Assembly: GCF_020010925.1 (NCBI RefSeq)
Contig: NZ_JAGJBZ010000001.1
Coordinates: 3,020,001-3,084,000 of the forward strand
Direction: 5' to 3'
DNA from: Streptomyces griseiscabiei
Lineage (GTDB): Bacteria; Actinomycetota; Actinomycetes; Streptomycetales; Streptomycetaceae
Length of the DNA: 64,000 bases
Shown here in pieces: positions 21,450 to 42,106 of this stretch (position 1 is the stretch's first letter; every line of letters starts with the position of its first letter). Both the position numbers and the translations under genes were made by a program. The notes below the pieces were generated by a model. It was not told the DNA's origin and did no database searches. It was given only the letters and a program-made list of their open reading frames with translations.

Positions 21450-21832
21450 GGAGCTGCTCCCTGGGATGCGACGGCTGTCGGCTTTGCGGCCTCCCATGGA
21501 AGCCGCACGCCGCCAGGGTAGCCCGGAGCGCCCCGGATGGTCAGAGCAGTCCACGGGACGGACTGGCGTGGCGTGGGCGGCCGAGTGCGGTTTACTCCGA
21601 CGACGCGACGAACCGCGGACACCGCTTCGGCACCGTGCGGACACCTCTCGCCCACAGGGGCGCCGGGGCGGACACCGGACGGGCACGGGAACGTCACGGG
21701 ACGGCGCGTGTGGCCGAAAAGCCGGTGACGGCCATTAGCGAGAGGTCGGCAACTCCCGGTAGTGTTCGACATTGCCGAACGGTGGTAGTTCAGTCGCGTA
21801 CGGCGGCCGAAGGGGACGGAGGCAGGACGGCG
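21450..21832. other. 383-base divergent intergenic region metH/gylR
   Basis: The region must contain the metH and gylR promoters. The only clear element is the GTTCG-N7-CGAAC operator at 21764-21780. I looked for a B12 box or the typical SAM-riboswitch core on the metH side and saw neither. Confidence 0.5.
21764..21780. promoter_or_regulatory. Candidate GylR operator upstream of gylR
   Basis: GTTCGACATTGCCGAAC is an inverted repeat (GTTCG-N7-CGAAC) located 52 bases before the gylR start. A matching copy with the same 7-base spacing precedes the glycerol operon at 22842-22858. Shared symmetry and position support binding by GylR at both places. Confidence 0.65.
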
Positions 21833-27774: not shown

Positions 27775-28935
27775 GGCCACGAGGTCGCGTACGGCGTCCG
27801 GGGACGTCACCTCGGCCCGCCGCACGATCAGTTCGCGCCCCAGCAGCAGGGCCCGGCGTGACGCCGGGACCGGGTCGGCCAGCGTCGTCAGGTCGGTCAG
27901 GTGGGCGAAGCCGATGATGCGGCGGATCAGTTCCGTGCCGGCGAAGCCCAGGGACTCCGTCCAGACGCGGTGCAGGAAGCGGTCCAGGTAGGCGTCGTCG
28001 AAGAAGGTGTCGACGCGGGTGGGCCAGAGCCGGCGGAACTCGGACGTGAACGCCTCCCAGGAGAGGCGGAGTTGGTCGCCATGGTCCGACAGCGTGCCGA
28101 GGGCGCGGGCCCGCTCCTCCGAGACGAGCGCGTTGGCCCAGTACAGGCCCAGGTCGAAGCCGATGGGACCGACGAAGGAGAACTCTGGGTCGAAGACCCG
28201 TACGACGGGGGCGCCCGCGCGCTCGCCGACCATGACGCTGCCCGAGTGGAGGTCACCGTGCAGGAGGGCCTGGGCGCTCGTCATGAAGACATGGCGGAGG
28301 TCGGCGACCTCGGTGCGGAGCACGGCGTCCGCGCGGAACGCGGCGGCCAGGTCGTCCAAGCCGGGGTGCCAGTGGTTGTGCTCGTGCTCGATGTACGGCT
28401 CGGAGAGGACGACGTCCTCGGTGATCTCGCACAGCTCGGGGTTGACCGAGGCGGCGAGCAGGGCCTTGCGGTCGGCGGAGGTCATGCCGAAGTCGCTGGT
28501 GGCGAAGGAGAGCCGGGCGACAAGACGGCCGATCTGCGCCGAGGTGTGCGGGCCGTAGGAGGCGCCCTCGTTGAGGAGGGTGCGCAGGACCTCCAGGTCG
28601 GAGAGGTCCTCCATGACCAGCGCGAAGTTCTCGGGGTCGTAGCCGTGGATCGCGGGGATCTCGTCGGGGGCGACCTTCCCCAACTGCTCGTACGCGCGGG
28701 CCTCGGCGTCCGCCCGCTCGGGGCTCAGCGGCCAGGAGGGCCCGGCGACCCGGACCCAGGGCAGCGCCTGCTTGAGGGCGAGACTCCGGGTGCCGGCCGC
28801 GTTCGAGGCGAGGAAGACGCGGTTGACGTTGCCGTCCGACACCTCGCGGACGGTGATGTCGTCCACGTCCTCCCAGTGTCCCCGCTCGCGCAGATACGCG
28901 GGGATGTCGTCGGTCTCCAGAATGCGGTAGCCCAT
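27760..28935 (-). CDS. mtnK: 5-Methylthioribose kinase
   Basis: A 391-aa aminoglycoside-phosphotransferase-fold kinase that phosphorylates methylthioribose (MTR) to MTR-1-phosphate. VREVSDGNVNRVFLA is the nucleotide loop, SLALKQALPWVRV holds the ATP-contacting Lys, ALLHGDLHSGSVMV is the catalytic loop and VRVFDPEFSFVGPIGFDLG the Mg loop, the latter diagnostic for MtnK. The ATG at 28935 follows GAGGGAG. It ends an operon of substrate-binding protein, ATPase and permease, 42 bases after the permease, which argues that the importer carries MTR. Its product feeds mtnA at 35.3-36.3 kb. Confidence 0.95.
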   Translation of the reverse strand: MGYRILETDDIPAYLRERGHWEDVDDITVREVSDGNVNRVFLASNAAGTRSLALKQALPWVRVAGPSWPLSPERADAEARAYEQLGKVAPDEIPAIHGYDPENFALVMEDLSDLEVLRTLLNEGASYGPHTSAQIGRLVARLSFATSDFGMTSADRKALLAASVNPELCEITEDVVLSEPYIEHEHNHWHPGLDDLAAAFRADAVLRTEVADLRHVFMTSAQALLHGDLHSGSVMVGERAGAPVVRVFDPEFSFVGPIGFDLGLYWANALVSEERARALGTLSDHGDQLRLSWEAFTSEFRRLWPTRVDTFFDDAYLDRFLHRVWTESLGFAGTELIRRIIGFAHLTDLTTLADPVPASRRALLLGRELIVRRAEVTSPDAVRDLVASPLG

Positions 28936-28977
28936 GGTCGGTGAACTCCCTCGTACGGCTGATGCGGTTGATGCGGC

Positions 28978-30024
28978 TTATGGGGTGCGGCGCTTGGACA
29001 AGGTGAAGCTGAAGACGAGGGCGAGGATGAGGACCACGCCCTCGACGACGTCCTGGGTGTAGTACGGCAGCCCCTTGATGGTGAGGCCGGTGGTGATGAT
29101 GCCGATGAGCACCGCGCCGAGGGCGGTGCCCCACACGTTCGGGCGTCCGCGTCCGAGGACCGAGGTGCCGACGAGGGCGACCGCGACGGCCTCCAGGAGC
29201 TGGGAGGTGCCGGCGGACACGTCGCCCTGGCCGATGCGGGAGGCCAGGATCAGGCCGCCGACGGAGGCGAGGACGCCGGAGAGGACGTAGGCCAGCGCCC
29301 GGTACGCGCCGACGCGGATGCCGGCCAGGCGGGAGGCCTCGGGGTTGGCGCCGATGGCGTAGAAGATGCGGCCCCAGCGGGTGCGGGCCAGGAACACCCA
29401 GGCGGCGACCGTCAGCGCGCCGAAGATCAGTACGGAGATGGGGATACCGAGGACCGTGCCCCGGTCGATCTTCAGAAAGCCGTCGGTGAACTTGCCGGGG
29501 GCGGTGGTGCCGTCCTCCAGGGTCATGCCGGGGGTGATCGACTGGCCGTCGACCAGGATCAGTTTGGTGCCCTGGATGACGAACATGGTGCCGAGGGTGG
29601 CCAGCATGTCGGGGATCTTCATCACCACGATCAGCAGGGCGTTGAGGAGGCCCGCGAGGGCGCCCGCCGCGAGGACGGCGAGGATCGCGACCGTGCCGAT
29701 CTGGTTGTGGACGACCATCGTGTGCGCGGCGACCGAGACACCGAGGCCGGCCACCGCACCGACAGACATGTCCATGCCGCCGACGGCCATGGTGAGGGTG
29801 ACACCGAGGCCGAGGATGGCGGCGACGGAGACATAGCGGAGGGTGTCCAGGAGGGTCGCCGACTCACGGAAGGAGCCCTCGGTCAGCGCGAAGTAGGCGA
29901 AGAGCGCGACCGTGACGAAGATGAAGCCGTACTTGATGACGGCGTTCTGGACGCGTACGCCGGTGGACGGGCCGGACGGGGTGGCCGCCTTCGCCACGGG
30001 CGCGGTGCTCTGGGTGGTGGTCAT
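28978..30024 (-). CDS. Sugar-type ABC permease (RbsC-like), probable methylthioribose importer
   Basis: A 348-aa membrane protein of the branched-chain/ribose permease family with about ten helices: FVTVALFAYFAL, AAILGLGVTLTMAVGGMDMSVG, ILAVLAAGALAGLLNALLIV, AIGANPEASRLAGI (EAA-like loop contacting the ATPase) and VVLILALVFSFTLSKRR at the end. The ATG at 30024 follows GAGGAAGCG. It lies between the ATPase and mtnK genes. The substrate assignment is by operon context; ribose or another pentose cannot be excluded. Confidence 0.9.
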   Translation of the reverse strand: MTTTQSTAPVAKAATPSGPSTGVRVQNAVIKYGFIFVTVALFAYFALTEGSFRESATLLDTLRYVSVAAILGLGVTLTMAVGGMDMSVGAVAGLGVSVAAHTMVVHNQIGTVAILAVLAAGALAGLLNALLIVVMKIPDMLATLGTMFVIQGTKLILVDGQSITPGMTLEDGTTAPGKFTDGFLKIDRGTVLGIPISVLIFGALTVAAWVFLARTRWGRIFYAIGANPEASRLAGIRVGAYRALAYVLSGVLASVGGLILASRIGQGDVSAGTSQLLEAVAVALVGTSVLGRGRPNVWGTALGAVLIGIITTGLTIKGLPYYTQDVVEGVVLILALVFSFTLSKRRTP

Positions 30025-30055
30025 GGAAGCGCTTCCTCAGGGGGCCGGGCCGGGG

Positions 30056-31615
30056 TCACACGGACGCCGAGATGGTCTGGATGACGCGGTCGCGTTCCGC
30101 GTCCTCGCCGTACGCGTCGAGGTGGATCTCCCCGGCGGCGAGCACGACGACCCGGTCGGCGACCTCCAGGACCTCGTCGACGTCGGCGGACAGGACGAGG
30201 ACGGCGGCGCCCTCGGCGGCGAGCGCGCGGGCGCGGCGGCCGATGTCGCGCCGGGCGCCGATGTCCACGCCTCGGAACGGCTCGTCCAGGATGAGGACGC
30301 GGGGGGTCTCGGCGAGCCAGCGGCCGACGACCACCTTCTGCTGGTTGCCGCCGGAGAGTTCCTCGACGGCGCTGTGCTCGTCGCGGGTGACGACCCCGAG
30401 GGCGTCGATGGTGTCGCGGCCGAGGGCGTTCTCCCGGGCCGTGTTCAGCAGGCCCAGCCGGGACAGGGACTTCAGGAACGGCAGGGAGATGTTCTGGGCC
30501 ACGGACCAGCCGGGGACGAGGGCGTCGGAGTGCCGGTCCTCGGGGACGAGGTGGACGCCGCCGCGGATGGCGTCGGCGGGGCGGCGGGGCGCGTACGCCC
30601 GACCGTCCAGCTCGACCGTGCCGGTGGTGAAGGGTTCGGCGCCGAAGAGGCCGCGAGCCAGTTCGGTCTTGCCGGCGCCCAGCAGGCCGACGACGCCGGT
30701 GACTTCGCCGGTGCGGAGGTCGAGGTCGAGGGGCGCGCGGCCCTCGAAGAGACGCACCCCGCGCAGGGAGAGGACCACGTCGCCCTGGTCGCCCTCGCGG
30801 ACCGGGCGGGCGGTGGTGGTCTCCTGGGCCTGGGCGAGCATCGCGCGCAGGGCGGCGTCCCAGTCGAAGGGGCGGGCCTGGTCCTCGGTGAGACGGCCGT
30901 CCCGCAATACGACCAGACGGTCGGCCAGTGCGTCGATCTCGCCGAGGCGGTGGGAGACGTAGAGGACCGCGATGCCGTCCGCCCGCATCCGCTCGACCAG
31001 CGCGAACAGGCGCTCGGCCTCGGCGGCGGAGAGCGCGGAGGTCGGCTCGTCGAGGATGAGCAGCCGGGGGCGGGTGGCGAGCGCGCGGGCCAGGATCAGC
31101 AACTGGCGGTCGGAGATGCCGAGTTCGGTGACATCCCGCTTGAGGACCGCGTCGGACCAGTCGAGGCCGAGGCCGGCCTGGATCTCCCGGGCGCGGGCGA
31201 GCAGCTTGCCGCCGTTGAGGAACGGGTTGCCGCGGCGCTGCGCCAGCTCCTCGAAGACCAGGTTCTCGGCGACGGTGAGGCCGGGGACGACGCCCTCACC
31301 GATGCGCTGGTGGACGGTCTGGATGCCCAACTGCCGGGCGGCCAGCGGCGACTGGAGAGCCGCGGGCTCCCCCGCGACCCGCACCTCACCGCCGTGGTCC
31401 GTGTGCACACCCGACAGGATCTTGATGAGGGTGGACTTGCCGGCGCCGTTCGCACCGAGCAGCGCGACCACGCTGCCCGGTGCGATGTCCAGCGAGACGG
31501 AGGCGAGCACCGTCCTGCCGCCGAAGGCCATGCTGACGTCGGTCAGGCTGACGGCTGCCGCTGTCTGCGGCTCCTCCGCCGCCCGGCCGTTGTCGGCGGT
31601 GTCAGTGGGCGACAT
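30056..31615 (-). CDS. Sugar-type ABC ATPase with two nucleotide-binding domains, probable methylthioribose importer
   Basis: A 519-aa RbsA/XylG-type ATPase. The first domain has Walker A LLGANGAGKSTLIKILSG and Walker B LLILDEPTSALSAAEAERLF. The second has the reduced P-loop GVVGLLGAGKTELARGLFG, signature VEELSGGNQQKVVVGRWL and Walker B LILDEPFRGVDIGARRDI, as usual for this family. The ATG at 31615 overlaps the substrate-binding-protein gene by 14 bases, indicating translational coupling. It energises import through the permease 31 bases downstream. Confidence 0.93.
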   Translation of the reverse strand: MSPTDTADNGRAAEEPQTAAAVSLTDVSMAFGGRTVLASVSLDIAPGSVVALLGANGAGKSTLIKILSGVHTDHGGEVRVAGEPAALQSPLAARQLGIQTVHQRIGEGVVPGLTVAENLVFEELAQRRGNPFLNGGKLLARAREIQAGLGLDWSDAVLKRDVTELGISDRQLLILARALATRPRLLILDEPTSALSAAEAERLFALVERMRADGIAVLYVSHRLGEIDALADRLVVLRDGRLTEDQARPFDWDAALRAMLAQAQETTTARPVREGDQGDVVLSLRGVRLFEGRAPLDLDLRTGEVTGVVGLLGAGKTELARGLFGAEPFTTGTVELDGRAYAPRRPADAIRGGVHLVPEDRHSDALVPGWSVAQNISLPFLKSLSRLGLLNTARENALGRDTIDALGVVTRDEHSAVEELSGGNQQKVVVGRWLAETPRVLILDEPFRGVDIGARRDIGRRARALAAEGAAVLVLSADVDEVLEVADRVVVLAAGEIHLDAYGEDAERDRVIQTISASV

Positions 31616-32711
31616 TCGAGATCCAGTCGGCGGTCGAGACCTGCGACAGGTTCAGCGCGGGCAGCGCCTCGCGCAGCTGGTCCATGTTCTCGATCTTCTT
31701 CTCGCGCAGGAAGTCCTGGGTGATGGCGACGGCCGGGAACTCCACGGAGGTCTTGTTCAGCTGTCCGGCCAGCTCCAGCGCGGTCGTCCGGACCACGGCG
31801 GCACCCACGGCGGACGGGTCGGTGCCCGCGGTGGCGACCCAGGGGCTGTCCTTGGCGGTGATGGCCTGGATGTCGGCGTTGGAGACATCGGCGCCGAAGA
31901 CCTTCACCTTGTCCTGGAGCTTCTTGTTCTGCACGGCGAGGACGGTGCCCTTGGCCAGCTCGTCGTAGGGGGCGAAGACGCCCGCGACGTCGGAGTTCTG
32001 GGTGAGGGCGGCGGAGACGAGGGGAACGTTGTCGGTGGCCGTGGAGTCGGTGACCTTGCCGACCTTGAACGCCTGCTTCCAGCCCTGGGCGTCGACGGTG
32101 GACTTCCAGACGGTGTCGCGCTTGTCGAGGGCCGCGTAGCCGGCGACGTTGACGTAGCCGACCTTGGCGTCCTTGCCGATCTCCTTCGCCATCACGTCGA
32201 GGACGGCCTGGGCCATGCTCGCGTCGTTCTGCTTGGTGGAGACGACGCCCTTCGTGTCGGTCTCGACGTCGTAGACGACGACCTTGACGCCCTTCTTCAC
32301 GGCCTTGTCGATCTCCGGCTGGATCGTCGCCGGGAAGCCGTGGTCGATGATGATCGCCTTGGCGCCGGAGTTGATGGCCGAGGACAGGTCGGTGGCCTGC
32401 TTGGCGTTGTCGGCCTGGGCGTCGTACACGGTCAGGTCGATGCCGAGGGCCTTGGCCTGCGCCTTCGCGCCGTTGCCCCACTGCTCGAAGTAGTCGCCGG
32501 CGCCGCTCTGTCTGACCAGCGCGACCTTGACTGCCCCGTCGGCGAAGGGGGCGGGCTTCTCGCCGGTGGCGGCCGAGGCCTTGGCGGCGGTGTCGCCGGT
32601 GTCCTTCGAGGCGTCGGTGGACTGGGCGCAGGCCGACAGCAGCAGGGCCGAGGCGGAGGCGAGGGAGAGCGCGGCGAGCGGGAGGCGGGTACGGCGGGAC
32701 GAGCGGGACAT
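31602..32711 (-). CDS. Sugar-binding lipoprotein of ABC importer, probable methylthioribose receptor
   Basis: A 369-aa type I periplasmic-binding protein. The signal MSRSSRRTRLPLAALSLASA leads to lipobox LLSAC, followed by a linker and VKVALVRQSGAGDYFEQWGN, AIIIDHGFPATIQPEIDKAV, GVFAPYDELAKGTVLAVQ and TDPSAVGAAVVRTTALELAG. The ATG at 32711 follows TGGAG. It heads the importer-mtnK operon and is preceded, 146 bases upstream, by a short Cys-ending leader frame, so expression is probably attenuated by sulfur supply. The ligand is inferred from mtnK in the same operon. Confidence 0.9.
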   Translation of the reverse strand: MSRSSRRTRLPLAALSLASASALLLSACAQSTDASKDTGDTAAKASAATGEKPAPFADGAVKVALVRQSGAGDYFEQWGNGAKAQAKALGIDLTVYDAQADNAKQATDLSSAINSGAKAIIIDHGFPATIQPEIDKAVKKGVKVVVYDVETDTKGVVSTKQNDASMAQAVLDVMAKEIGKDAKVGYVNVAGYAALDKRDTVWKSTVDAQGWKQAFKVGKVTDSTATDNVPLVSAALTQNSDVAGVFAPYDELAKGTVLAVQNKKLQDKVKVFGADVSNADIQAITAKDSPWVATAGTDPSAVGAAVVRTTALELAGQLNKTSVEFPAVAITQDFLREKKIENMDQLREALPALNLSQVSTADWISNVAH

Positions 32712-32784
32712 GACGGCTCCAGGTGCGGTGTGGTGCGAAGGAAAGAAGGGAGGGAGTACTCGACCCGGAGCGGGGGCGGAAACG

Positions 32785-32806: not shown

Positions 32807-32857
32807 AGCGCCCGGGACGGCAGAGCGCGTCAGGGCGCGTCGGGGCTCCGGCAGTGG

Positions 32858-32929
32858 TCAGCGACAGCTGGCCGTGGTCGACCGGAGCAGGTCCACGTAC
32901 AGCCGCCGCACGAGCAGCAGCGTCTTCAT
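32858..32929 (-). CDS. Cys-ending leader peptide of importer-mtnK operon
   Basis: A 23-residue peptide beginning MKTLLLVRRLYVDLLR and ending STTASCR before TGA. The RRLYVDLLR block and a Cys immediately before the terminal Arg are typical of the Streptomyces leader peptides found before sulfur-metabolism genes, where ribosome stalling at Cys codons is thought to control attenuation. There is no Shine-Dalgarno; the ATG coincides with the start point predicted from the -10 box, so it is probably leaderless. The lipoprotein gene starts 146 bases downstream. Confidence 0.75.
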   Translation of the reverse strand: MKTLLLVRRLYVDLLRSTTASCR

Positions 32930-32935
32930 ACACAG

Positions 32936-32965
32936 ATCATGAGAACGATTTCAGCCATGCGTCAA
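32936..32965 (-). promoter_or_regulatory. Promoter of importer-mtnK operon
   Basis: On the minus strand, TTGACG (32965-32960) and CATGAT (32941-32936) are separated by 18 bases. The leader ATG at 32929 begins seven bases after the -10 hexamer, the expected start point of a leaderless transcript. Confidence 0.6.
32940..32953. promoter_or_regulatory. LacI-type operator-like palindrome, promoter-overlapping
   Basis: TGAGAACGATTTCA, a near-palindrome centred on CG, lies in the spacer between -35 and -10. Binding there would block RNA polymerase. A related site lies 31 bases away. Confidence 0.55.
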
Positions 32966-32970
32966 AGCAA

Positions 32971-32986
32971 TGAGAGCGGTTTCTCA
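32971..32986. promoter_or_regulatory. LacI-type operator-like palindrome, upstream copy
   Basis: TGAGAGCGGTTTCTCA has perfect TGAGA/TCTCA arms and matches the promoter-overlapping site in most positions. CG-to-CG distance is 31 bp, about three helical turns, which would put both sites on the same face of DNA. Confidence 0.55.
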
Positions 32987-33081
32987 CCAGGTGAGACAGC
33001 GACTACGTCACACATGTCCGTACATGGACCGGCGTTACCATCGCGGTACCGGCACCCGACCGGCACGACAGTGAGGCCCCG

Positions 33082-33156
33082 ATGACGACATCCGACGCGA
33101 CGGCGCAGCGTATGCCCGGCATGCGCCGCTGTCCCGGCGCGCTGTGTCGCGGCTGA
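33082..33156 (+). CDS. Cys-ending leader peptide of mtnDCB operon
   Basis: A 24-residue frame beginning [16 protein letters not shown] and ending CPGALCRG before TGA. GAGG lies six bases before the ATG. Two Cys codons, the second four codons before the end of the frame including the stop, and its place 95 bases before mtnD resemble the other two leaders in the island. In the gap, GGAG of the mtnD ribosome site (33240-33243) can pair with CTCC at 33247-33250. Its identity as a leader is inferred from these parallels. Confidence 0.6.
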
Positions 33157-33251
33157 CCGGCCGCCCGTCCCTCACGTTGCTCCGCTTCCCCGCCGTCCGG
33201 GTGCTCGTCCCGGTATCCGGACATCCCTTCCAGAATCCTGGAGTTGCTCCC

Positions 33252-33860
33252 ATGACCCTGCTGACCACCTGGCCCGAGTCCGGACCGGAGACCGTGGTGC
33301 GTCGTACCTCCGACCCCGTGGAGATCGCCGCCGCGCTGGCGCCGCTCGGGGTGCGCTACGAGCAGTGGCCGATCCGCGAGGACGTGCCGTTCGACGCGGG
33401 CAGCGAGACCGTGTTCGCCGCGTACGGACCGGAGATCGAGCGGCTCAACGCCGAGGAGGGCTTCACCACGGTCGACGTCCTCGGGCTGCACCCGAGCGAC
33501 GATCCCGAGTTCCCGGTGAAGGCGAAGGCCGCCCGCGAGAAGTTCCTCCAGGAGCACACCCACGACGACGATGACGAGGTGCGCTTCTTCGTCTCCGGCT
33601 CCGGCATCTTCTACCTCCACGTCGACGGCGAGGTGCACGCCGTCTACTGCGAGAAGGGCGACCTGCTGGGTGTACCGCGCGGGACGACGCACTGGTTCGA
33701 CATGGGCACCAGCCCCTCCTTCACGGCGATCCGGTTCTTCCACGAGGAGGACGGCTGGATCGGCAGCTTCACCGGCTCCACCATCGCCTCCCGCTTCCCG
33801 GACTACGACACGATCGACGCCGGGTACCAGCAGGACAAGCAGGACAAGGCAGCGGTGTGA
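33252..33860 (+). CDS. mtnD: Acireductone dioxygenase
   Basis: A 202-aa cupin that oxidises the acireductone of methionine salvage to the ketoacid of methionine plus formate (Fe form) or off-pathway products (Ni form). Metal ligands are His102, His104 and Glu109 in [16 protein letters not shown], and His147 in [13 protein letters not shown]. The ATG at 33252 follows CTGGAG. It is first of mtnD-mtnC-mtnB, with the mtnC GTG overlapping its stop by four bases. Confidence 0.95.
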
Positions 33861-34591
33861 GCCAGGTCTTCGACAGCGGCTCCATCGACTCCGTGGTGCT
33901 CGACATCGAGGGCACCACGAGCGCCACGGGGTTCGTCGTGGACGTGCTCTACCCGTACTCCCGCTCCCGTTTCGCGGCGCTGCTCGCGGAACGGGGTGAC
34001 GATCCTGAGGTGGCGCGGGCTGTCGCCCAGGTACGCGAGCTCATCGACGAGCCGGACGCCGACGCCGCGCGGGTCGAGAAGGCGCTCCACGCGTGGCTCG
34101 ACGAGGACCGCAAGGCGACGCCGCTGAAGACCCTCCAGGGCCTCATCTGGTCCGAGGGCTTCGCCCGGGGCGACCTCGTCTCCCACTTCTACGACGACGT
34201 CCTGCCGGCCCTGCGCGCCTGGCACACGGCGGGCGTACGCCTGCACGTGTACTCCTCGGGTTCCGTGGCCGCGCAGCGCGCCTGGTTCCGGTCGAGCCCC
34301 GAGGGCGATCTGCTGCCGCTGGTCGAGGGGTTGTACGACACGGAGAACGCGGGGCCGAAGCAGGAGGCGGAGTCGTACCGCGTGATCGCGACGGCGCTGG
34401 GTCTCGCCGCGACGCCCGAGCGCATCCTCTTCCTCTCCGACCGGCCCGGTGAACTGGACGCGGCGCGGGAGGCCGGCTGGCACGCCGTCGGTGTCCGGCG
34501 GCCCGGGGAGCCGTACTACGAGCAAGGCGTCGGCGACCACGCGCAGGCGGGGACGTTCGACGAGATCACCATCATCAGGAGCACGACGTGA
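33857..34591 (+). CDS. mtnC: Enolase-phosphatase E1
   Basis: A 244-aa HAD-family bifunctional enzyme that enolises and dephosphorylates 2,3-diketo-5-methylthiopentyl-1-phosphate to acireductone. Motif I is [15 protein letters not shown] with the family-specific D-x-E, motif [18 protein letters not shown], and the late motifs include [16 protein letters not shown] and [19 protein letters not shown]. The GTG at 33857 overlaps mtnD by GTGA, and the mtnB start overlaps its own stop, so all three are translationally coupled. Confidence 0.95.
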
Positions 34592-35196
34592 CCACAGAGA
34601 TCTCTTCCCTCGACCTGGAGGAGGCGGGCGCCGTCCTGGCCGCCGAGTCGGCCCGCTTCGCCTCCTTCGGCTGGATGCGCGGCACCTCGGGGAACCTGTC
34701 GGTGGTGCTGTCCCGCGATCCGCTGCGGCTGGCGGTGACGGCGAGCGGACACGACAAGGGTGAACTGACGCCCGCGGACGTGGTGTTGGTGGACGGCGAC
34801 GGTGCCGCGGTCCAGGGCGGCAGGCCGTCCGCCGAGGCCGAGCTGCACGCGCGCGTCGCCGCGCTGACCGGGGCGGGTGCGGTCGTCCACGTCCACACGG
34901 TCGCGTCCGTGGCGATGGGGCGCCGTGAGCCCGGGGGCATCGTGTTCAGGGACCTGGAGATGCTCAAGGGCGTCGGCCAGCCCGCCCACGACGTCGAGGT
35001 CACCCTCCCCGTCATCACCAACAGCCAGGACATGAAGGAGCTGGGCGACCGTCTGGAGGCCGCCCGCGACCCCCGTATGCCGGCGGTGGTCGTCGCCGGC
35101 CACGGCCTGTACGTCTGGGGCGACACCCCTCGCCAGGCCCGTCATCACACCGAAGTGGTGGAGTGGCTGCTGGAGTTGGAGCTGTCCCAGCGCTGA
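34588..35196 (+). CDS. mtnB: Methylthioribulose-1-phosphate dehydratase
   Basis: A 202-aa class II aldolase/adducin-fold zinc enzyme that dehydrates methylthioribulose-1-phosphate. FGWMRGTSGNLSVVLSRD is the phosphate loop, TASGHDKGELTPADVVLVDGDG the following strand, and AVVHVHTVASVA plus VVAGHGLYVWGDT hold the three zinc His. The GTG at 34588 overlaps the mtnC stop. A perfect hairpin just downstream ends the operon against convergent mtnA. Confidence 0.95.
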   Translation: MTTEISSLDLEEAGAVLAAESARFASFGWMRGTSGNLSVVLSRDPLRLAVTASGHDKGELTPADVVLVDGDGAAVQGGRPSAEAELHARVAALTGAGAVVHVHTVASVAMGRREPGGIVFRDLEMLKGVGQPAHDVEVTLPVITNSQDMKELGDRLEAARDPRMPAVVVAGHGLYVWGDTPRQARHHTEVVEWLLELELSQR

Positions 35197-35205
35197 CGGA
35201 ACGTC

Positions 35206-35242
35206 ACAGGGCGGCCCGGTCACGGTGACCGGGCCGCCCTGT
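35206..35242. terminator. Bidirectional terminator between mtnB and mtnA
   Basis: Two perfect 18-base inverted arms are separated by a single base, between convergent stops at 35196 and 35261. It serves both transcripts. Confidence 0.85.
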
Positions 35243-35260
35243 CGTCGAGTCAGGTACGGG

Positions 35261-36298
35261 TCACGCCTGGCGCAGGCGCTCGCCGGGCAGTTCGCCCGCC
35301 GAGACCTCCAGCACGCCCCGCTCGGTGACCAGGCCCGTCACCAGGCGGCCCGGTGTCACGTCGAACGCCGGGTTGTGGCCCCGGGACTCGGCGGGTGCCG
35401 TGCGGACGCCGCTCCATTCCAACACCTCGTCCTCGCCCCGGAGTTCGATGTGGATGTCGGCGCCGGAGAGGGTGGCGAGGTCGACCGTGGTGGTGGGGGC
35501 GGCGACCATGAAGGGGATGCCGGCGTCGGCGCAGGCGAGGGCGACACCGACCGTGCCGACCTTGTTGGCCGTGTCGCCGTTGGCCGCGATGCGGTCGGCG
35601 CCCACGATCGCCGCGTCGACCTCACCGCGCAGGATCGTGCCGGCGGCGGCGCCGTCCACCTGGACGTGGTGCGGGATGCCCTCCTGGACCAACTCCCAGG
35701 CGGTCAGCCGGGATCCCTGGAGGAGGGGACGGGTCTCGTCGGCGTAGACGACTTCGAGGAGCCCCCGCGCGTGGAGTTCGCGGATGACGCCAAGTGCCGT
35801 TCCCCATCCGGCGGTTGCCAGCGCGCCCGTGTTGCAGTGGGTCAGCACCCGCAGCGGACGGTCGACGCCCACCCGCTTCAGCAGCCAGTCGGCGCCGAAC
35901 ACCCCCATGGCCCGGTTCGCCTCGACGTCCTCGCGCTGGACGGCGGCGGCCTCCTCCAGCACCGCGTCCAGCCCCTCGTCGAAGCGGGTCATGACCCGGT
36001 CGACACACACCATCAGGTTCACGGCGGTGGGGCGCGCCGCACGGACACGGGCGACGGCGGCCCGTGTCTCCTCGGCCGACCAGCCCTCCCGCTCGCCCTG
36101 AAGGAGCGCGAGGGCCACCCCGTACCCGCCCGCCGCCCCGATCGCGGGAGCGCCCCGGACGACGAGGCGCTGGATCGCGGAGACCAGGGAGTCGACGTCG
36201 CGGATCTCGACCGTCTCGGTGCGGTGCGGCAGGACCGTCTGGTCGATGAGCGCGACGCTGTTTCCGGTCCAGTCGACGGCGCGCAGTTCCTGGGGCAT
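35261..36298 (-). CDS. mtnA: Methylthioribose-1-phosphate isomerase
   Basis: A 345-aa member of the eIF2B-like family that opens MTR-1-phosphate to methylthioribulose-1-phosphate. The start MPQELRAVDWTGNSVALIDQ, IQRLVVRGAPAIGAAGGYG, the catalytic Cys in VLTHCNTGALATAGWGTALG and Asp in AIVGADRIAANGDTANKVGT are all present. The ATG at 36298 follows AGGAGTACC. Unlike the other mtn genes it is alone, facing mtnB and divergent from the nucleoside-importer operon. I saw no short Cys-ending frame in front of it. It is where the kinase branch and the phosphorylase branch meet. Confidence 0.95.
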   Translation of the reverse strand: MPQELRAVDWTGNSVALIDQTVLPHRTETVEIRDVDSLVSAIQRLVVRGAPAIGAAGGYGVALALLQGEREGWSAEETRAAVARVRAARPTAVNLMVCVDRVMTRFDEGLDAVLEEAAAVQREDVEANRAMGVFGADWLLKRVGVDRPLRVLTHCNTGALATAGWGTALGVIRELHARGLLEVVYADETRPLLQGSRLTAWELVQEGIPHHVQVDGAAAGTILRGEVDAAIVGADRIAANGDTANKVGTVGVALACADAGIPFMVAAPTTTVDLATLSGADIHIELRGEDEVLEWSGVRTAPAESRGHNPAFDVTPGRLVTGLVTERGVLEVSAGELPGERLRQA

Positions 36299-36455
36299 GG
36301 CGGGGTACTCCTGGGGTTCCGAAGGTGCCCGACACCGTACATGACCTCGGAGAACGGCCGGGAACCACAGTTCGAGACGGCGGGGCACCCGTCCGGAGAG
36401 CGGTGTTACAGTCCAGCCCCGCCCGCAGCCCGTAGGCCGATGTGAAGGAGGAACC

Positions 36456-36521
36456 GTGCTGCTCACCATGCGCCGTTTCCTCGACCACGGCCGCTGCGCG
36501 AGCGACGGCTGTCGCCGCTGA
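36456..36521 (+). CDS. Cys-ending leader peptide of nucleoside-importer operon
   Basis: A 21-residue frame starting with GTG after the strong ribosome site AAGGAGG; the peptide opens MLLTMRRFLDHGR and ends CASDGCRR before TGA. Two Cys codons near the end, the last followed by Arg-Arg-stop, parallel the leaders before the importer-mtnK and mtnDCB operons. The gap to the lipoprotein start is 146 bases, the same as in the importer-mtnK case. A role in attenuation is inferred. Confidence 0.6.
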   Translation: MLLTMRRFLDHGRCASDGCRR

Positions 36522-36667
36522 TCCCGGTCCCCCGGACCGCTTCGGCGCCCCGCCGCCCTCCCCCACACGGATCCACACCCGCTCCGCCTCCACCTCGTCC
36601 GCCTCCTCAGGGCTCGTCAGCGTCGACGGTCCCGGCCCTTGCCGCACCCTCCGGAAGGTCGCCCCCG

Positions 36668-37744
36668 ATGTCCCGCAGTGCCCGCCCCACCCGTAGATCC
36701 CGCCGCTCCCTGCGACTCGCCGCCCTCGCCACCGGCACCGTCCTGCTGGCCACCGCCTGCAACGCGGCCGCGAAGAAGGACGGTTCCGCCGACGACGCCG
36801 GCGCGAGCGGTGGCAGCGGCAAGAGCTTCACGCTCGTCACCCCGGACGCCGTCGGCCAGAACGAGTTCCTGAAGAACGCCGTCACCGGTGTGAAGGCGGC
36901 GGCGAAGGAGCACGACGGCTCGCAGAAGGTCTACGAGTCCACGGACACCTCCTCGCAGCAGCAGAACGTGCAGGCCGCGGTGGACGAGCGGCCGGATGTG
37001 ATCGTGCTGGTGGGCTTCGAGTTCGCGGACCTGGTCGCCCAGCAGGCCGAGGCCCACCCGAAGCAGCGGTTCCTGCTGGTGGACGCGTGCACGGAGAAGA
37101 CGTTCGAGAACGTGTCGTGCGCGGTGTTCCGGGAGCACGAGGGTGTCTTCCTCGCGGGCGCGGAGGCGGGCCTGCTGAGCGAGAGCGGCAAGGTGGGTGC
37201 CGTGGACGTGCTGGACACGCCCCAGTTCCGCCGCTTCAGCGACCCGTTCGCGGCCGGTGCCCAGCATGTCGCCGCCAAGACGCAGACCTCGACCCGGTTC
37301 GTCGGCGGCCAGTCCCCGTTCGACGACTCCGCCCGCGCCAAGGAGCAGGCCGGCTCGCTGCTCGCCAAGGGCTACGACCAGCTGATGGCCGCCGCCGCGG
37401 CCGGCAACTACGGCGTGTTCGAGGCGGCGAAGGCCAAGGGCGCGTTCGCGTACGGCGTGGACGTCAACCAGTGCCCGTCGGCGCCGGGCACGGTCGTCGA
37501 CAACGTCGTCAAGCGCACGGACGTCGCGGTGGAGAAGGGCATCGAGCGGGTCCTCGACGGAAAGACGGGCACGGTCTCATACGGCCTCAAGGAGGGCGGC
37601 ATCACCCTCACCGGTCTGGAGGACGGCGTGGACTCGTCGCAGTGCGTCATCGCCGACCACAAGGACGTGCTGAAGAAGGTCGAGGCGCTGCGCGACCTGA
37701 TCGTGTCGGGAGAGCTGAAGGTCGATGACCCCGCGGCCGCCTGA
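36668..37744 (+). CDS. BMP-family nucleoside-binding lipoprotein
   Basis: A 358-aa receptor of the PnrA/BMP family, which bind nucleosides for ABC import. The basic signal SRRSLRLAALATGTVLLAT leads to lipobox LLATAC. Family landmarks: TLVTPDAVGQNEFLKNAVTG, VIVLVGFEFADLVAQQAEAH, ENVSCAVFREHEGVFLAGAE, VGAVDVLDTPQFRRFSDPFA and GVDVNQCPSAPGTVVDNVVK. The ATG at 36668 follows GGAAGG. It is first structural gene of a six-gene operon and overlaps the ATPase gene by 20 bases. The natural ligand may be methylthioadenosine or another purine nucleoside. Confidence 0.9.
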   Translation: MSRSARPTRRSRRSLRLAALATGTVLLATACNAAAKKDGSADDAGASGGSGKSFTLVTPDAVGQNEFLKNAVTGVKAAAKEHDGSQKVYESTDTSSQQQNVQAAVDERPDVIVLVGFEFADLVAQQAEAHPKQRFLLVDACTEKTFENVSCAVFREHEGVFLAGAEAGLLSESGKVGAVDVLDTPQFRRFSDPFAAGAQHVAAKTQTSTRFVGGQSPFDDSARAKEQAGSLLAKGYDQLMAAAAAGNYGVFEAAKAKGAFAYGVDVNQCPSAPGTVVDNVVKRTDVAVEKGIERVLDGKTGTVSYGLKEGGITLTGLEDGVDSSQCVIADHKDVLKKVEALRDLIVSGELKVDDPAAA

Positions 37745-39329
37745 CGGACCGGCGGAGGCCGCGGCGTCCGGTGGTGACACCCCGGACACCCCGGACACCC
37801 CGGACACCCCGCCCGCCGTCGAACTCCTCGGCATCACCAAGCAATACCCCGGCACCCTCGCCAACGACGCGGTCGACCTGACCGTCCGCCCCGGCGAGAT
37901 CCACGCGCTCATGGGCGAGAACGGCGCGGGCAAGTCGACGCTGATGTCCGTCCTGTACGGCATGGAACGCCCGGACGCCGGCACGATCCGCGTCGACGGG
38001 CGCGAGGTGTCCTTCGCCGGGCCGTCCGACGCGATGGCCGCCGGGCTCGGCATGGTCCACCAGAGCTTCAAGCTGTTCGACTCGCTGACGGTCGCCGAGA
38101 ACGTGGTGTACGCCGCCGAGCCGCGCCGCTTCGGCCTGGTGGACCGGGCCGCGGCCCGCCGCCGGGTCCGTGAACTCGGCGCGGAGCACGGCCTGCCGGT
38201 GGACCCCGACGCCCGGGTCGGCGCGCTGCCGGTCGGGCTGCGGCAGCGTGTGGAGATCCTCAAGCTCCTGCACCGCGGCGCCCGCGTCCTCATCCTCGAC
38301 GAGCCGACCGCCGTGCTGACGCCCGCCGAGGCCGACGCCCTGTTCGCGGTGCTCAAGTCGCTGGCGGCGCGGGGCCGTACGGTGATCCTCGTCACCCACA
38401 AGCTGCGCGAGGTGCTGGAGGGCAGCGACCGGGTGACCGTCCTGCGGGACGGCCGGGTGGTGGCCCGGCTGCGGACCGCCGACACCACCGCCGACGCGAT
38501 CGCGGCGGCGATGACGGGCCGCGAGGTCGAGCTGGACCGCGTCCACGCGACCGGCACGCCCGGGGAGGTGATCCTGGACGTCGACGGCCTCACCACCGAC
38601 GGGGTCCGCGAGGTCGCGCTCACCGTCCGCGCCGGGGAGATCGTCGGCATCGCGGGGGTCGCCGGAAACGGCCAGGGCGAACTGGTCGAGGCCCTCGCCG
38701 GGCTGCGCCCGGTCGCCTCGGGCCGGGTCCGGCTGCGCGGCGAGGACATCACGCACGCCTCGGCGACCGAGCGGCGCGCCCGGGGCGTCGCGTACGTCCC
38801 GGAGGACCGGCACGCCGTGGGGACGGCGCCGGCGGCGTCCGTGGCGGAGAACCTGGCGATGGGCCATCACCGGACGTCCCTGTCGGCCGGGTCCCGGCTC
38901 GGCCTGCTCCCACCCGCCGCCGTACGGGACCACGCGCGGCGGCTGATCGAGCGGTTCGGCGTCAAGGCGTCGAGCCCGGACGTGCCCGCGTCGGCGCTCT
39001 CCGGCGGCAATCTGCAGAAGCTGCTGATCGGGCGTGAACTCGCCCACGAGGCCCCGCTGTTGCTCGTCGAGCAGCCGACGCGCGGCGTCGACATCGGCGC
39101 CGTCCAGAACATCCACGACCAACTCGTCGCCCACCGCGACGCCGGTCACGCCGTCCTCCTCGTCTCCGCCGAACTCAGCGAGATCCGGGGCCTGTCGGAC
39201 CGCGTGCTGGTCATGTACGAGGGCCGGGTGACCGCCGCGTACGACAAGGCCGACGCGGACGAGGGCGTGCTCGGGCTCGCGATGGCCGGCGGCGGCAGCG
39301 GCCCGGCACCGGTGGAGGCCGGGAACTGA
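37725..39329 (+). CDS. Nucleoside ABC importer ATPase (NupA/YufO-like)
   Basis: A 534-aa protein with two nucleotide-binding domains. The first has Walker A LMGENGAGKSTLMSVLYG, Q-loop GMVHQSFKLFDSLTVAEN and Walker B LILDEPTAVLTPAEADALF. The second has the modified loop GIAGVAGNGQGELVEALAG, signature ALSGGNLQKLLIGREL and VEQPTRGVDIGAVQ. This is the pattern of guanosine/uridine importers. The N-terminus carries a repeated Asp-Thr-Pro stretch. It overlaps the receptor gene and ends one base before the permease gene. Confidence 0.93.
   Translation: MTPRPPDGPAEAAASGGDTPDTPDTPDTPPAVELLGITKQYPGTLANDAVDLTVRPGEIHALMGENGAGKSTLMSVLYGMERPDAGTIRVDGREVSFAGPSDAMAAGLGMVHQSFKLFDSLTVAENVVYAAEPRRFGLVDRAAARRRVRELGAEHGLPVDPDARVGALPVGLRQRVEILKLLHRGARVLILDEPTAVLTPAEADALFAVLKSLAARGRTVILVTHKLREVLEGSDRVTVLRDGRVVARLRTADTTADAIAAAMTGREVELDRVHATGTPGEVILDVDGLTTDGVREVALTVRAGEIVGIAGVAGNGQGELVEALAGLRPVASGRVRLRGEDITHASATERRARGVAYVPEDRHAVGTAPAASVAENLAMGHHRTSLSAGSRLGLLPPAAVRDHARRLIERFGVKASSPDVPASALSGGNLQKLLIGRELAHEAPLLLVEQPTRGVDIGAVQNIHDQLVAHRDAGHAVLLVSAELSEIRGLSDRVLVMYEGRVTAAYDKADADEGVLGLAMAGGGSGPAPVEAGN
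37776..37811 (+). repeat. 9-bp tandem repeat in ATPase N-terminus
   Basis: Four exact GACACCCCG units are in frame and encode repeated Asp-Thr-Pro near residues 18-28. Unit number could vary between strains without shifting the frame. Confidence 0.85.
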
Positions 39330-39330
39330 C

Positions 39331-40392
39331 ATGAACCGCATACCCGGCGGCCGTGCGACGGCCGCCCTCCGCTCCCCCGTCGCGTTCTCCGTCGTCGCCG
39401 GTGTCGTCGTCGGCGCCCTGTTCCTGCTGGGCACGGGCGCCGATCCGCTGACCGCGTACGGCGCCGTCCTGACCGGCTCGCTCGGCGCGGACGGCATCGG
39501 CTCGACGCTGACCACCGGCACGAGTGTGCTCGGCATGGCCCTGGCGCTGGCGATCCCGCTGCGCGCCGGGCTGATCAACCTCGGCGGTGACGGACAGCTG
39601 GTCCTAGGGGGCATCACGGCCGCCGTCACCGGCCTGTACTCGCCGCTCCCGGCACCGCTCACCGTCGTCCTCGCCCTGCTGGCGGGCATGGCCGCCGGTG
39701 CCGCGTACGCCGCGCTCGCCGCGCTCTGCGAGAACAGGCTGGGTGTTCCGCTGCTGGTCAGCAGCCTGCTGCTGAGCTATCCGGCGGTGTCGCTCGCCTC
39801 CTGGCTGGCCCGCTATCCGCTCAAGGAGCCAGGGTCCAGCCTCCCCCAGACCCGCCGGCTCCCGGAGGGGGTCGCGCTGCCCGCGTTCGGTGCGTCGACG
39901 GTGACCGTGGGGCTGCTGCTGGTGCTCCTCGCGGCAGCCGCGTACTGGTTCACGGACCGGCGCACGGCGCTCGGCTACGAGATCCGGATGACCGGCCTCA
40001 ACCCGCGTTTCACCGCGTACGCCGGTGTGGAGCGCGCGGGGCTGACGCTCCGGCTGACGTCCGTGTCGGGCGCGCTCGCCGGGCTCGTCGGGGCGATCGG
40101 GGTGCTGAGCTTCCCGTACCGCTTCCTGGACGGCTCGCTCACCGCGCCCGGCTACACCTGGACGGGGCTGACGGCCGCGCTCCTCGCGGCGGCGGCGCCG
40201 CTCGGCACGCTCCTCGCCTCGTTCTTCTTCGCGGTCCTCCAGGTCGGCGGGCTGTCGATGGAGCGGACGACGGAGGTGCCGCGCGAGCTGACGCAGGTGC
40301 TCCAGGCCGTCGTCATCGTGTTCCTGGCGGCCCGGCTGCGGTTCCCGCGGCGGTGGTCCGGCGGGCGGAACCGGCGGAAGGCGGCCGTGTGA
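39331..40392 (+). CDS. Nucleoside ABC importer permease 1
   Basis: A 353-aa membrane protein of the BMP-associated permease family. Helices include VAFSVVAGVVVGALFLLG, IPLRAGLINLGGDGQLVLGG (the conserved N-GxxGQ loop), LTVVLALLAGMAAGAAYAAL and LLVLLAAAAYWF; GYEIRMTGLNPRFTAYAGV is the ATPase-contact loop. The C-terminus is basic. It starts one base after the ATPase stop, and its stop shares a base with the next start codon. Confidence 0.92.
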   Translation: MNRIPGGRATAALRSPVAFSVVAGVVVGALFLLGTGADPLTAYGAVLTGSLGADGIGSTLTTGTSVLGMALALAIPLRAGLINLGGDGQLVLGGITAAVTGLYSPLPAPLTVVLALLAGMAAGAAYAALAALCENRLGVPLLVSSLLLSYPAVSLASWLARYPLKEPGSSLPQTRRLPEGVALPAFGASTVTVGLLLVLLAAAAYWFTDRRTALGYEIRMTGLNPRFTAYAGVERAGLTLRLTSVSGALAGLVGAIGVLSFPYRFLDGSLTAPGYTWTGLTAALLAAAAPLGTLLASFFFAVLQVGGLSMERTTEVPRELTQVLQAVVIVFLAARLRFPRRWSGGRNRRKAAV

Positions 40393-41297
40393 TGTTCTTC
40401 GACTCCGATCTGCTGATGTCGGCGCTGCGCGCCCTCACCCCGATCCTGCTGGCCGCGCTCGGCGGCGCCCTGTGCGAGCGTGCGGGCGTCTTCAACATCG
40501 GCCTCGAGGGCATGATGCTGCTGGGCTGCTTCACGGCGGTGACGACCAGCTGGTTCACCGGCAGCCCCTGGCTCGGTGTCCTCGCGGCGGTCCTCGCGGC
40601 AGCGGCGTACTCCCTGGTCCTGGCCGTCGGCGCGGTGACCCTGCGCGGCGACGCGGTGGTCCTCGGCATCGCCATGAACCTGCTCGCCGTCGGCCTGACC
40701 AGCTTCCTGCTGCGCACGGTCTTCGGCGTCCAGGGCACCTTCGACGATCCGTCACTCGCGGGACTGCCCCTGATCGGGGGGCTCTCCCCGCTGGCCTATC
40801 TGGCGTGGGCCGCCGTCGGTGTGGCCGCGCTCGTCCTGTCCCGCCATGTGTGGGGGCTGCGGCTGCGCGGGGTCGGCGAGGCACCGGACGCGGCGGCCAC
40901 GCTCGGGGTGAGCCCCACCGGGTACAAGTACGCGGCGGTGCTCGTCTCCGGTGTACTGTGCGGACTCGCGGGCGCCCAACTCGCCCTGGGGAACGTCACG
41001 TTGTTCTCCGAGAACATGACGGCCGGGCGGGGCTGGATCGCCGTGGTCGCCGTGCTGCTCGGCCGCGCGCTGCCGCTGGGCGTCCTGCTCGCCGCGCTCC
41101 TCTTCGGTCTCGCCGAGGCCGCCGGCTTCCGCCTGCAGGGGCTCGGTCTGCCGCAGCAGGCGACGGACGCCGCCCCGTACGTCGTCACGCTCGGCGCCCT
41201 CTTCCTGACGACGGCCCGCCGCCGACGCCGGAGCCCCCGCGCCGCCGCGGGCAGCACCGGCACCGACCACCCCAACCGCTCTGGAGCCACCGCATGA
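40392..41297 (+). CDS. Nucleoside ABC importer permease 2
   Basis: A 301-aa second permease. LMSALRALTPILLAALGGAL begins the protein, GVFNIGLEGMMLLGCFTAV is the conserved loop, and later helices include LGVLLAALLFGLAEAAGF. RLRGVGEAPDAAATLGVSP contacts the ATPase. The ATG at 40392 overlaps the preceding stop by one base (a GTG one codon earlier is possible). The end overlaps the phosphorylase start by four bases. Confidence 0.92.
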   Translation: MFFDSDLLMSALRALTPILLAALGGALCERAGVFNIGLEGMMLLGCFTAVTTSWFTGSPWLGVLAAVLAAAAYSLVLAVGAVTLRGDAVVLGIAMNLLAVGLTSFLLRTVFGVQGTFDDPSLAGLPLIGGLSPLAYLAWAAVGVAALVLSRHVWGLRLRGVGEAPDAAATLGVSPTGYKYAAVLVSGVLCGLAGAQLALGNVTLFSENMTAGRGWIAVVAVLLGRALPLGVLLAALLFGLAEAAGFRLQGLGLPQQATDAAPYVVTLGALFLTTARRRRRSPRAAAGSTGTDHPNRSGATA

Positions 41298-42106
41298 CAC
41301 AGGACCTGCTGCCCATCACCCGGATACCCAGGGCCGGGCTGCCGCCGCGCGCGGTCGTGGTCGGCGACCCGGCGCGCGCCGCGGCCGTCGCCGCGCTGCT
41401 GGACGGCGCCGAGGAGGTGTCGTACCACCGTGAGTACCGGGTGTTCAGCGGGAGTTGGAAGGGCGTGCCGGTCGTCGTCGCCTCGCACGGGGTGGGCGGT
41501 CCCGGCGCGATCCTGCTGTTCCAGGAGCTGGCGGACGCGGGGGTCCGCACCTTCCTGCGGTTCGGCACGGCGGGCGCGATGCGGCCCGGGATCGGCGACG
41601 GCGACCTGGTGATCGCGGAGGCGGCCGTACGCGACGACGGGGTGACCCGGCAGCTGCTGCCGCCCGAGTACCCGGCGGTCTCCGCCCCCGAGGCGGTCAT
41701 CGCGCTCCAGCGCGCCGCCCGTGAGGTGGGAGCACCGCATCACCGGGGCATCGTATGGACGAGGGCGGCCTTCCAGCCCGGGCTGATCCCGCTCGACGCG
41801 TACGACCGTGCCGGGCTCGCCGCCATCGAGATGGAGCTGTCCGCGCTGTATGTGACGGCGTCGCTGCGCGGTCTGGTCGCGGGCGGGGTGCTCGTCGTGG
41901 ACGGCGTGAACGCCGACGAACTGGTCGACGAGGAGGCCACCGGCGGTTACGACCCGCACCGCGAGGTCGTCGCGCTCGGGGTGGAGCGCGGGGCGGTCGT
42001 GGCGCTGGAGGCACTGCGGCTGCTGGCGGAGGAGTACGCGTTCGAAGGGGCCGGGTCCGAGGGGACCGGGTCCGGGGCAGACGGCTTCGAGGGGGACGCC
42101 GCGTGA
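41294..42106 (+). CDS. Nucleoside phosphorylase (PNP/UDP family)
   Basis: A 270-aa enzyme splitting a nucleoside with phosphate. AVVVGDPARAAAVAALLDGA binds phosphate, VASHGVGGPGAILLFQELAD and FLRFGTAGAMRPGIGDGDLVI are the family core, and AAIEMELSALYVTASLRGL holds the ribose-binding Met-Glu pair. In this operon it could split 5'-methylthioinosine produced by the adjacent deaminase, releasing MTR-1-phosphate for MtnA. A broader inosine or uridine activity is equally possible from sequence. Start and stop overlap both neighbours by four bases. Confidence 0.88.
   Translation: MTQDLLPITRIPRAGLPPRAVVVGDPARAAAVAALLDGAEEVSYHREYRVFSGSWKGVPVVVASHGVGGPGAILLFQELADAGVRTFLRFGTAGAMRPGIGDGDLVIAEAAVRDDGVTRQLLPPEYPAVSAPEAVIALQRAAREVGAPHHRGIVWTRAAFQPGLIPLDAYDRAGLAAIEMELSALYVTASLRGLVAGGVLVVDGVNADELVDEEATGGYDPHREVVALGVERGAVVALEALRLLAEEYAFEGAGSEGTGSGADGFEGDAA

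Follow-up and report, generated by a model that had tools for sequence, protein, structure and literature searches.

Within the 64,000-nucleotide stretch of Streptomyces griseiscabiei DNA analyzed here (contig NZ_JAGJBZ010000001.1, positions 3,020,001 to 3,084,000; hereafter the window), three short open reading frames (ORFs), L1, L2, and L3, precede three operons of a methionine-salvage island: the operon for a sugar-type importer and mtnK, the mtnDCB operon, and an operon for a putative nucleoside importer, respectively. These frames are probably the translated leader ORFs of cysteine-responsive attenuators, in which a shortage of Cys-tRNA would stall the ribosome at a UGU codon and thereby open the operon; from their sequences we infer translation, stalling, the direction of control, and the signal. 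By comparison with related loci, they represent a known kind of conserved leader ORF at a new location, one being missed by family scans and one being a separate variant, and they follow a sharp codon rule: UGU occupies the sensor position in about 99% of the sampled leaders versus about 3% of the Cys codons of genes. The findings would extend leader control by Cys from cysteine synthesis to the salvage of methylthioadenosine and methylthioribose, adding two leader variants that go undetected in the NCBIfam scan.

Conservation of the leader frames

The sequence-only reading of this DNA, which had pointed out three Cys-ended frames ahead of the island's operons, was accurate as to their places, their peptides, and the gaps to the next start codons, which by coordinates are 146, 95, and 146 bases for L1, L2, and L3, respectively. 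It had taken all three operons to run forward, which is not so because the importer-mtnK operon lies on the minus strand. The bare occurrence of Cys near the end of a frame is weak evidence alone because 27 of the 175 mechanical frames of 15 to 40 codons in the window have Cys within their last four residues; the leader pattern goes beyond chance because it is conserved across related loci. Conservation was counted in 80 loci, the best of the 291 relatives obtained in a scan for mtnD, and the nearest relative among the loci found was S. caniscabiei (mtnD identity 97%). Every one of the 60 related loci that carry the importer gene has L1; among the 59 that carry the Bmp gene, 53 have L3, and L2 precedes mtnD in 48 of 80. 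A Shine-Dalgarno (SD)-like site precedes every copy of L2 (49/49) and L3 (54/54), and the promoter-like geometry of L1, which suggests a putative leaderless start, recurs in 61 of 62 copies. The Cys codons held up in the alignment across relatives that had been proposed as a check: the sensor codon is TGT in 62/62 copies of L1 and 54/54 of L3 (44/44 distinct), the window being included in both, and the Cys codon of the GAxC motif is TGT in 48/49 copies of L2. All three frames show the conserved regulatory codons in a leader ORF that serve as a criterion for ribosome-mediated amino-acid attenuators, and the earlier picture stands, namely that short conserved ORFs whose Cys codons are fixed close to the stop lie ahead of three sulfur-salvage operons, as known Cys leaders do.

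Six loci lack the L3 pattern. One of them, L003, holds a diverged frame, VLLATCLFLVHGRCGSDGCRR. In two others, L070 and L080, both from diverged species, the position of L3 ahead of the Bmp gene is taken by an unrelated frame rich in Cys, such as MAAKADAMCCPAVSCGRRMRCRRCCRCCR, which has no NCBIfam match; comparison indicates that Cys is retained there while the remaining peptide has changed. The L3 frame of L036 is decayed, with both the Cys codons and the stop gone, and a pattern search detected no frame at the L3 place in L031 and L067. As for L2, the ATG, the stop, and two TGT Cys codons are unchanged in 28/28 copies of its 75-nt class, so that L2 evidently maintains its Cys codons, start, and stop, not the whole peptide; because the search pattern demanded two in-frame Cys, the Cys count of L2 is partly built in, while the choice of codon was left free by the pattern. 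Of 150 genomes in a second genus sample, 34 had mtnD; among the 30 loci listed, 12 had L2 ahead of it (the window's own included), all with mtnD identity of at least 87%.

UGU codon at the sensor cysteine

In the cis_reg_atten class of actinobacterial leaders (NCBIfam NF042934), the sensor Cys follows the Asp of an RRxxDxxR motif at a distance of nine residues. Class leaders were counted in this genome, in the genus, and in the class Actinomycetes, the last being sampled as one leader per genome from 30 genomes of 15 families. Of 137 distinct leaders, 135 have Cys at this position, and 133 of these encode it by UGU, the two exceptions (L234 and L237) using UGC; counted by row, UGU takes the site in 38/39, 77/80, and 30/30 leaders of the genome, genus, and class samples, respectively. 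These counts do not represent independent events because the sequences share descent. Elsewhere in these peptides, Cys is encoded by UGC in 130 cases and by UGU in 32, UGU makes up 17 of the 619 Cys codons of eight genes across the 80 loci, and other codons of the class leaders show the usual bias, as exemplified by His (CAC 80 vs CAT 28). The other Cys of L3, at codon 14, is encoded by UGC in 24 distinct copies and UGU in 20, and the further Cys codons of L2 are often UGU too (UGU 62, UGC 42). Two class leaders, L087 and L245, have Ser (AGC and AGT) at the sensor site, which might reflect either decay or a serine sensor.

Isoacceptor charging cannot explain the choice of UGU because a pattern search of the genome detected three tRNA-Cys genes, all with the anticodon GCA, and UGU would be read by wobble. 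For the same reason, selective tRNA charging, which the available text of PMC1183508 gives as an account of leader codon choice, is inapplicable as it stands. One possibility is that actinobacterial Cys leaders share a composite sensor, consisting of RRxxDxxR in the exit tunnel and a wobble-read UGU nine residues later, in which codon-anticodon geometry sets the sensitivity of the attenuator, and that one sensor type in three variants tunes the whole island. We hold this idea only tentatively, at slightly less than an even chance. If it is true, codon-anticodon geometry itself, not isoacceptor charging, would set attenuator sensitivity. The UGU rule makes it testable why attenuators prefer one synonymous codon when one tRNA reads both. 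A literature search, which covered titles and abstract openings and few subscription papers, returned no account of mtn leaders or of the UGU rule.

Relationship to known leaders

L1 matched NF042934 over positions 1-19 of 19 at 25.1 bits (E 9.5e-6), just under the curated cut-off of 27 bits, and direct scans of L2 and L3 gave no match at E up to 10. The L3 profile, however, aligned without gaps over 18 columns with an alignment of twelve cis_reg_atten leaders, whose rows were taken from cis_reg_atten hits (hhalign probability 86.6, E 4.5e-6). Several weaker matches of the L3 profile in other genomes coincide with NF042934 leaders, and intermediate leaders such as LLTSRRHIDFGRTSSAICRLV link L3 with the class. 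By profile comparison, L3 has diverged from the cis_reg_atten class but is related to it, as is L1. Under our own, wide description of the class, an RRxxDxxR-like block with Cys nine residues after Asp, L1 and L3 fall inside and L2 outside. The suggestion that both plus-strand peptides represent a new leader type therefore survives for L2, which lacks the motif, and fails for L3, whose profile aligns with the class. L2, rejected as a cis_reg_atten member for want of both the motif and a profile match, may be a separate leader type.

The family line of NF042934, "putative leader peptide", states no mechanism; its members resemble L1 and L3 in the Asp-to-Cys distance of nine, the UGU sensor, and the register. 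There is overlap between the class and the mycobacterial Cys-rich leaders of the Ms5788A family (NF042933), and two polycysteine leaders from other genera, L274 and L276, which precede DUF4395 and rhodanese genes, exceed the cut-offs of both families. Relatives of L3 scored 15 to 16.8 bits against NF042933 or were unmatched (cut-off 45 bits). As described in the available portions of the literature, the Ms5788A-family and mycobacterial polycysteine ORFs are likewise short and leaderless, with Cys codons near the stop and a place ahead of sulfur genes, but they contain a run of Cys in contrast with the few Cys of the island leaders. According to PMC9031893 and PMC13236596, which both cite Canestrari et al. 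2020, ORFs of this sort act as attenuators of Cys genes in M. smegmatis; mycobacterial Cys leaders are reported to have no terminators, with Rho being suggested (PMC1262725), and Cys-rich leaderless upstream ORFs (uORFs) with ribosome footprints are reported in PMC4633059. The Rhodobacterales cysS leader uORFC-8-2, as given in the available part of PMC8632094, has in common with the island leaders the use of Cys codons in a uORF as the sensor, but differs in its tandem Cys, its intrinsic terminator, and the prevalence of UGC.

None of the eight S. lividans leaders in the available text of PMC8079986 is attributed to cysteine, and that of metL, preceding metNIQ, is attributed there to methionine. 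The metL leader is a short ORF with several terminal Cys and shares PGAxC with L2; this likeness did not reach significance (hhalign probability 12.6 over 5 columns), and L2 was not taken as a metL homologue. PGARC with UGU is present in the 12 relatives of the metL leader read, and matches occur in 29 of 31 Streptomyces. Because both Cys of GARCxC are retained in those relatives while one of them has CTC for CMC, the metL leader may sense Cys instead of Met, the amino acid proposed in that source. A metL leader, MTTTSYRTPATEATMTPGARCMCRMCAC, was also observed before a MetN-like gene at L356 (G000 contig 1 near 2911985).

RNA structure of the leader regions

As to downstream structure, the other part of the proposed alignment check, complementary segments were found for L1 and a candidate hairpin for L3, and neither was found for L2. 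The RNA of L1 contains four segments (Table 1) with three possible pairings, 1:2, 2:3, and 3:4. The cores of segments 1-3 are all present in 46 of 60 loci; CCGGAG of segment 2 lies at most 36 nt from the L1 stop in 56 of 60, at exactly 6 nt in 53, and the segment 3 core CTCCGG occurs in 49 of 59 L1 spacers versus 294 of 2360 shuffled ones. Pairing clearly above shuffles was obtained between the L1 leader and the 40 nt after its stop (z 13.8) and between the spacer and the SD (z 18.4), and not between the leader and the rest of the spacer (z -1.8) or between the leader end and the next 40 nt (z -3.0). With a ribosome placed at UGU, the mean predicted 2:3 pairing in the 46 loci rose from 0.62 to 0.99 before the SD was made; in the full RNA it rose from 0.41 to 0.58, and 3:4 pairing fell from 0.45 to 0.31. 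These predictions suggest that L1 has a conserved RNA switch able to hide the ribosome site.

A candidate hairpin across the L3 stop pairs above shuffles (z 8.5 over 51 distinct loci), with 10 of the 51 exceeding 95% of their own shuffles. Stem tests on the leader middles of L2 (z -2.5) and L3 (z -0.3) gave nothing above shuffles, and an Rfam scan of the window at gathering scores found only a Streptomyces-metH RNA and a tRNA, none at the leaders. The leader-to-gene spacers have C fractions of 0.49-0.51 and G fractions of 0.21-0.24, compared with 0.30 and 0.30 upstream of mtnA; in the class, the values are 0.46 and 0.27 after the leader and 0.33 and 0.34 before it. From such C-rich, G-poor spacers, Rho-dependent attenuation would be the leading guess for L2 and L3.

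Proposed mechanism and alternatives

When Cys-tRNA falls, the ribosome would stall with the sensor UGU in its A site, where the RRxxDxxR block of L1 or L3, by then some 9 to 13 residues into the exit tunnel, may deepen the pause, and the stall would alter the downstream RNA so that the salvage operon is expressed. In the free RNA of L1, segments 1:2 and 3:4 would be paired, which would conceal the ribosome site. A ribosome stalled at UGU would lie between segments 1 and 2, and segment 2 would therefore pair with segment 3 once this is made, leaving segment 4 open. A single signal, Cys-tRNA supply, seems the natural common denominator of the three leaders.

Several results weigh against this reading. 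Control of the whole island by one signal, as originally proposed, is not supported: in the window, the 250 bases upstream of mtnA contain no Cys-ended frame, any such frame is found in 4 of 70 loci, and L2 is missing from 32 of 80. The synonymous-change test gave 10 of 17 distinct changes for L1 (expected 6.1, P 0.019) and 20 of 55 for L3 (expected 15.9, P 0.064), and is weak because two minus-strand frames reached P 0.04 and 0.02 as well; for L2 (26/75, P 0.19; 8/21, P 0.44) it detected no peptide-level selection. At equilibrium, the mean unpaired fraction of the L1 SD is 0.08 in the free and 0.10 in the stalled RNA (60 loci), and the window's own L1 has 3:4 pairing of 0.98 and 0.90, respectively; because SD access barely changes, release would need co-transcriptional kinetics. 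RNAalifold on MAFFT alignments gave no covariation, a test that is uninformative because the leader nucleotides scarcely vary. No hiding of the L3 SD was found, this site being less paired than in shuffles (z -2.4), and L2 has no significant structure (z 1.9), and its SD likewise pairs less than the shuffled controls (z -3.1). As to Rho, the C-rich spacer composition is almost as marked in mtnD loci without L2 (C 0.45, G 0.26) as in those with it (0.49, 0.20).

The constancy of UGU might have a cause other than the counting of Cys-tRNA. If the leaders were arrest peptides whose nascent RRxxDxxR senses a small molecule directly, the Cys codon being the arrest point only, it would be understandable that L1 and its class keep the peptide sequence and the Asp-to-Cys distance beyond the needs of codon counting. 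A constraint on the amino acid only would not, however, fix UGU over UGC, and L2, the Cys-rich frames of L070 and L080, and the metL leader retain Cys codons without the motif; we regard this explanation as improbable. It also seems quite unlikely that UGU is fixed by RNA structure or a protein-binding motif rather than by decoding. The consensus fold of L1 and L3 does pair part of UGUCG with an upstream CGAC or GAC that is nearly invariant, but the base following UGU is not constant (C 103, T 21, G 5, A 4), and pairing of class leaders with the downstream 50 nt is no higher than in shuffles (z -0.8 and 0.0 for 135 leaders), within-leader pairing being outside that test.

Another view would be that the ORFs merely load ribosomes or protect the RNA, with no control by Cys, and that transcription factors at conserved operators do the regulation. 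Operator-like sites indeed occur upstream of L3 (GAAC-N4-GTTCGA in 49/53 loci) and L1 (TCTCA-N0-8-TGAGA, between the L1 and L2 promoters, in 40/61), and leaders can raise expression by reinitiation according to the available text of PMC4833913; this view is nevertheless highly improbable to us, as it leaves the fixed-place UGU and the complementarities of the L1 RNA unexplained. Concerning L2 in particular, a chance frame within a conserved promoter or DNA element is unlikely. It would agree with the absence of detectable peptide-level selection and with the loci that lack L2, 15 of which (out of 32, compared with 32 of the 48 loci with L2) carry promoter-like GTTACCATC; upstream regions were inspected for 25 of the 32. 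The invariance of ATG, stop, and two TGT in the 75-nt class and of TGT in GAxC, found with a pattern that required two Cys, speaks against it.

Layout of the island and other observations

The coordinates of the leaders, RNA elements, and genes are collected in Table 1. From the presence of mtnK in the same operon, the substrate of the L1-operon importer is presumably methylthioribose, and the substrate assignment of the L3 operon is similarly presumptive.

Table 1. Leader frames, RNA elements, and genes of the island, numbered from the first letter of the window
Feature	Position	Strand	Remarks
L1, peptide MKTLLLVRRLYVDLLRSTTASCR	32858-32929	-	Sensor UGU 32864-32866
L1 promoter-like site	32936-32965	-	TTGACG 32960-32965, 18 bases, CATGAT 32936-32941, 6 bases to ATG
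L1 segment 1, GCUCCGG	32882-32888	-	Codons 14-16
L1 segment 2, CCGGAGC	32845-32851	-	6 nt 3' of leader stop
L1 segment 3, GCUCCGGGU	32763-32771	-	
L1 segment 4, ACCUGGAGC	32716-32724	-	Includes importer ribosome-binding site
L2	33082-33156	+	Marked sites 33130-33132, 33145-33147; SD-like GAGG 33073-33076
L3, peptide VLLTMRRFLDHGRCASDGCRR	36456-36521	+	Sensor UGU 36510-36512; SD AAGGAGG 36445-36451
Candidate hairpin over L3 stop	36513-36547	+	CGCCG 36513-36517 with CGGCG 36543-36547
Substrate-binding protein of sugar-type ABC (ATP-binding cassette) importer, first gene of L1 operon	31602-32711	-	PF13407; RbsB-like score below cut-off
Remainder of L1 operon	27760-31615	-	ATPase, permease, mtnK
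ATPase, L1 operon	30056-31615	-	
Permease, L1 operon	28978-30024	-	
mtnK, L1 operon	27760-28935	-	TIGR01767 methylthioribose kinase, 411.7 bits
mtnDCB operon	33252-35196	+	
mtnD	33252-33860	+	PF03079 ARD
mtnC	33857-34591	+	mtnC/mtnB by TIGR01691, TIGR03328
mtnB	34588-35196	+	mtnC/mtnB by TIGR01691, TIGR03328
mtnA	35261-36298	-	TIGR00512
L3 operon	36668-43401	+	NCBIfam matches of its genes below cut-off
Bmp/PnrA-type substrate-binding protein, first gene of L3 operon	36668-37744	+	
ATPase, L3 operon	37725-39329	+	
Permeases, L3 operon	39331-40392 and about 40353-41297	+	
Nucleoside phosphorylase, L3 operon	41294-42106	+	
Amidohydrolase, L3 operon	42103-43401	+	Related to methylthioadenosine/5'-deoxyadenosine deaminases

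The window's inverted repeat between the divergent L1 and L2 promoters is TTCTCACCAGGTGAGA (32981-32996), a possible operator. Between mtnA and L3 lies the conserved box GAACCACAGTTCGA(GAC) at 36362-36378, with a near-palindromic core, which we take to resemble the actinobacterial SOS/LexA box; 49 of 53 loci have a form of it ahead of L3. A stretch like GGTGCTNGTCTCGGTATCCGGACAT (33200-33224) stands just upstream of mtnD, and several loci without L2 have it too. Elsewhere in the window, the Streptomyces-metH RNA (RF03076, 104.3 bits) occupies 21447-21566 on the minus strand and adjoins a long minus-strand frame, 17919-21686, that appears metH-like from its translation.

The L3 profile (A1) had strong matches (E <1e-10) in 7 of 61 genus genomes, and the L2 profile (A2) matched 4 of 61 at E <1e-9, plus G032 at 2.5e-4. 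In the class-wide sample of 118 genomes, 14 had an A1 match at E up to 0.01, and the window's own was the sole strong one. Given so few strong matches in the genus and class samples, L2 and L3 were rejected as widespread leaders before other genes. Eight class leaders or weak matches were followed in this genome; the scripted search gave no suitable next gene for three (L081, L090, and L093). Behind the other five lie genes for a cysteine dioxygenase, a protein of the nitrite/sulfite reductase type, a ROK protein, and two luciferase-like monooxygenases, of which one scored above cut-off as the dimethylsulfone monooxygenase SfnG, and the salvage of methylthio compounds as a sulfur source would fit with the genes behind class leaders.

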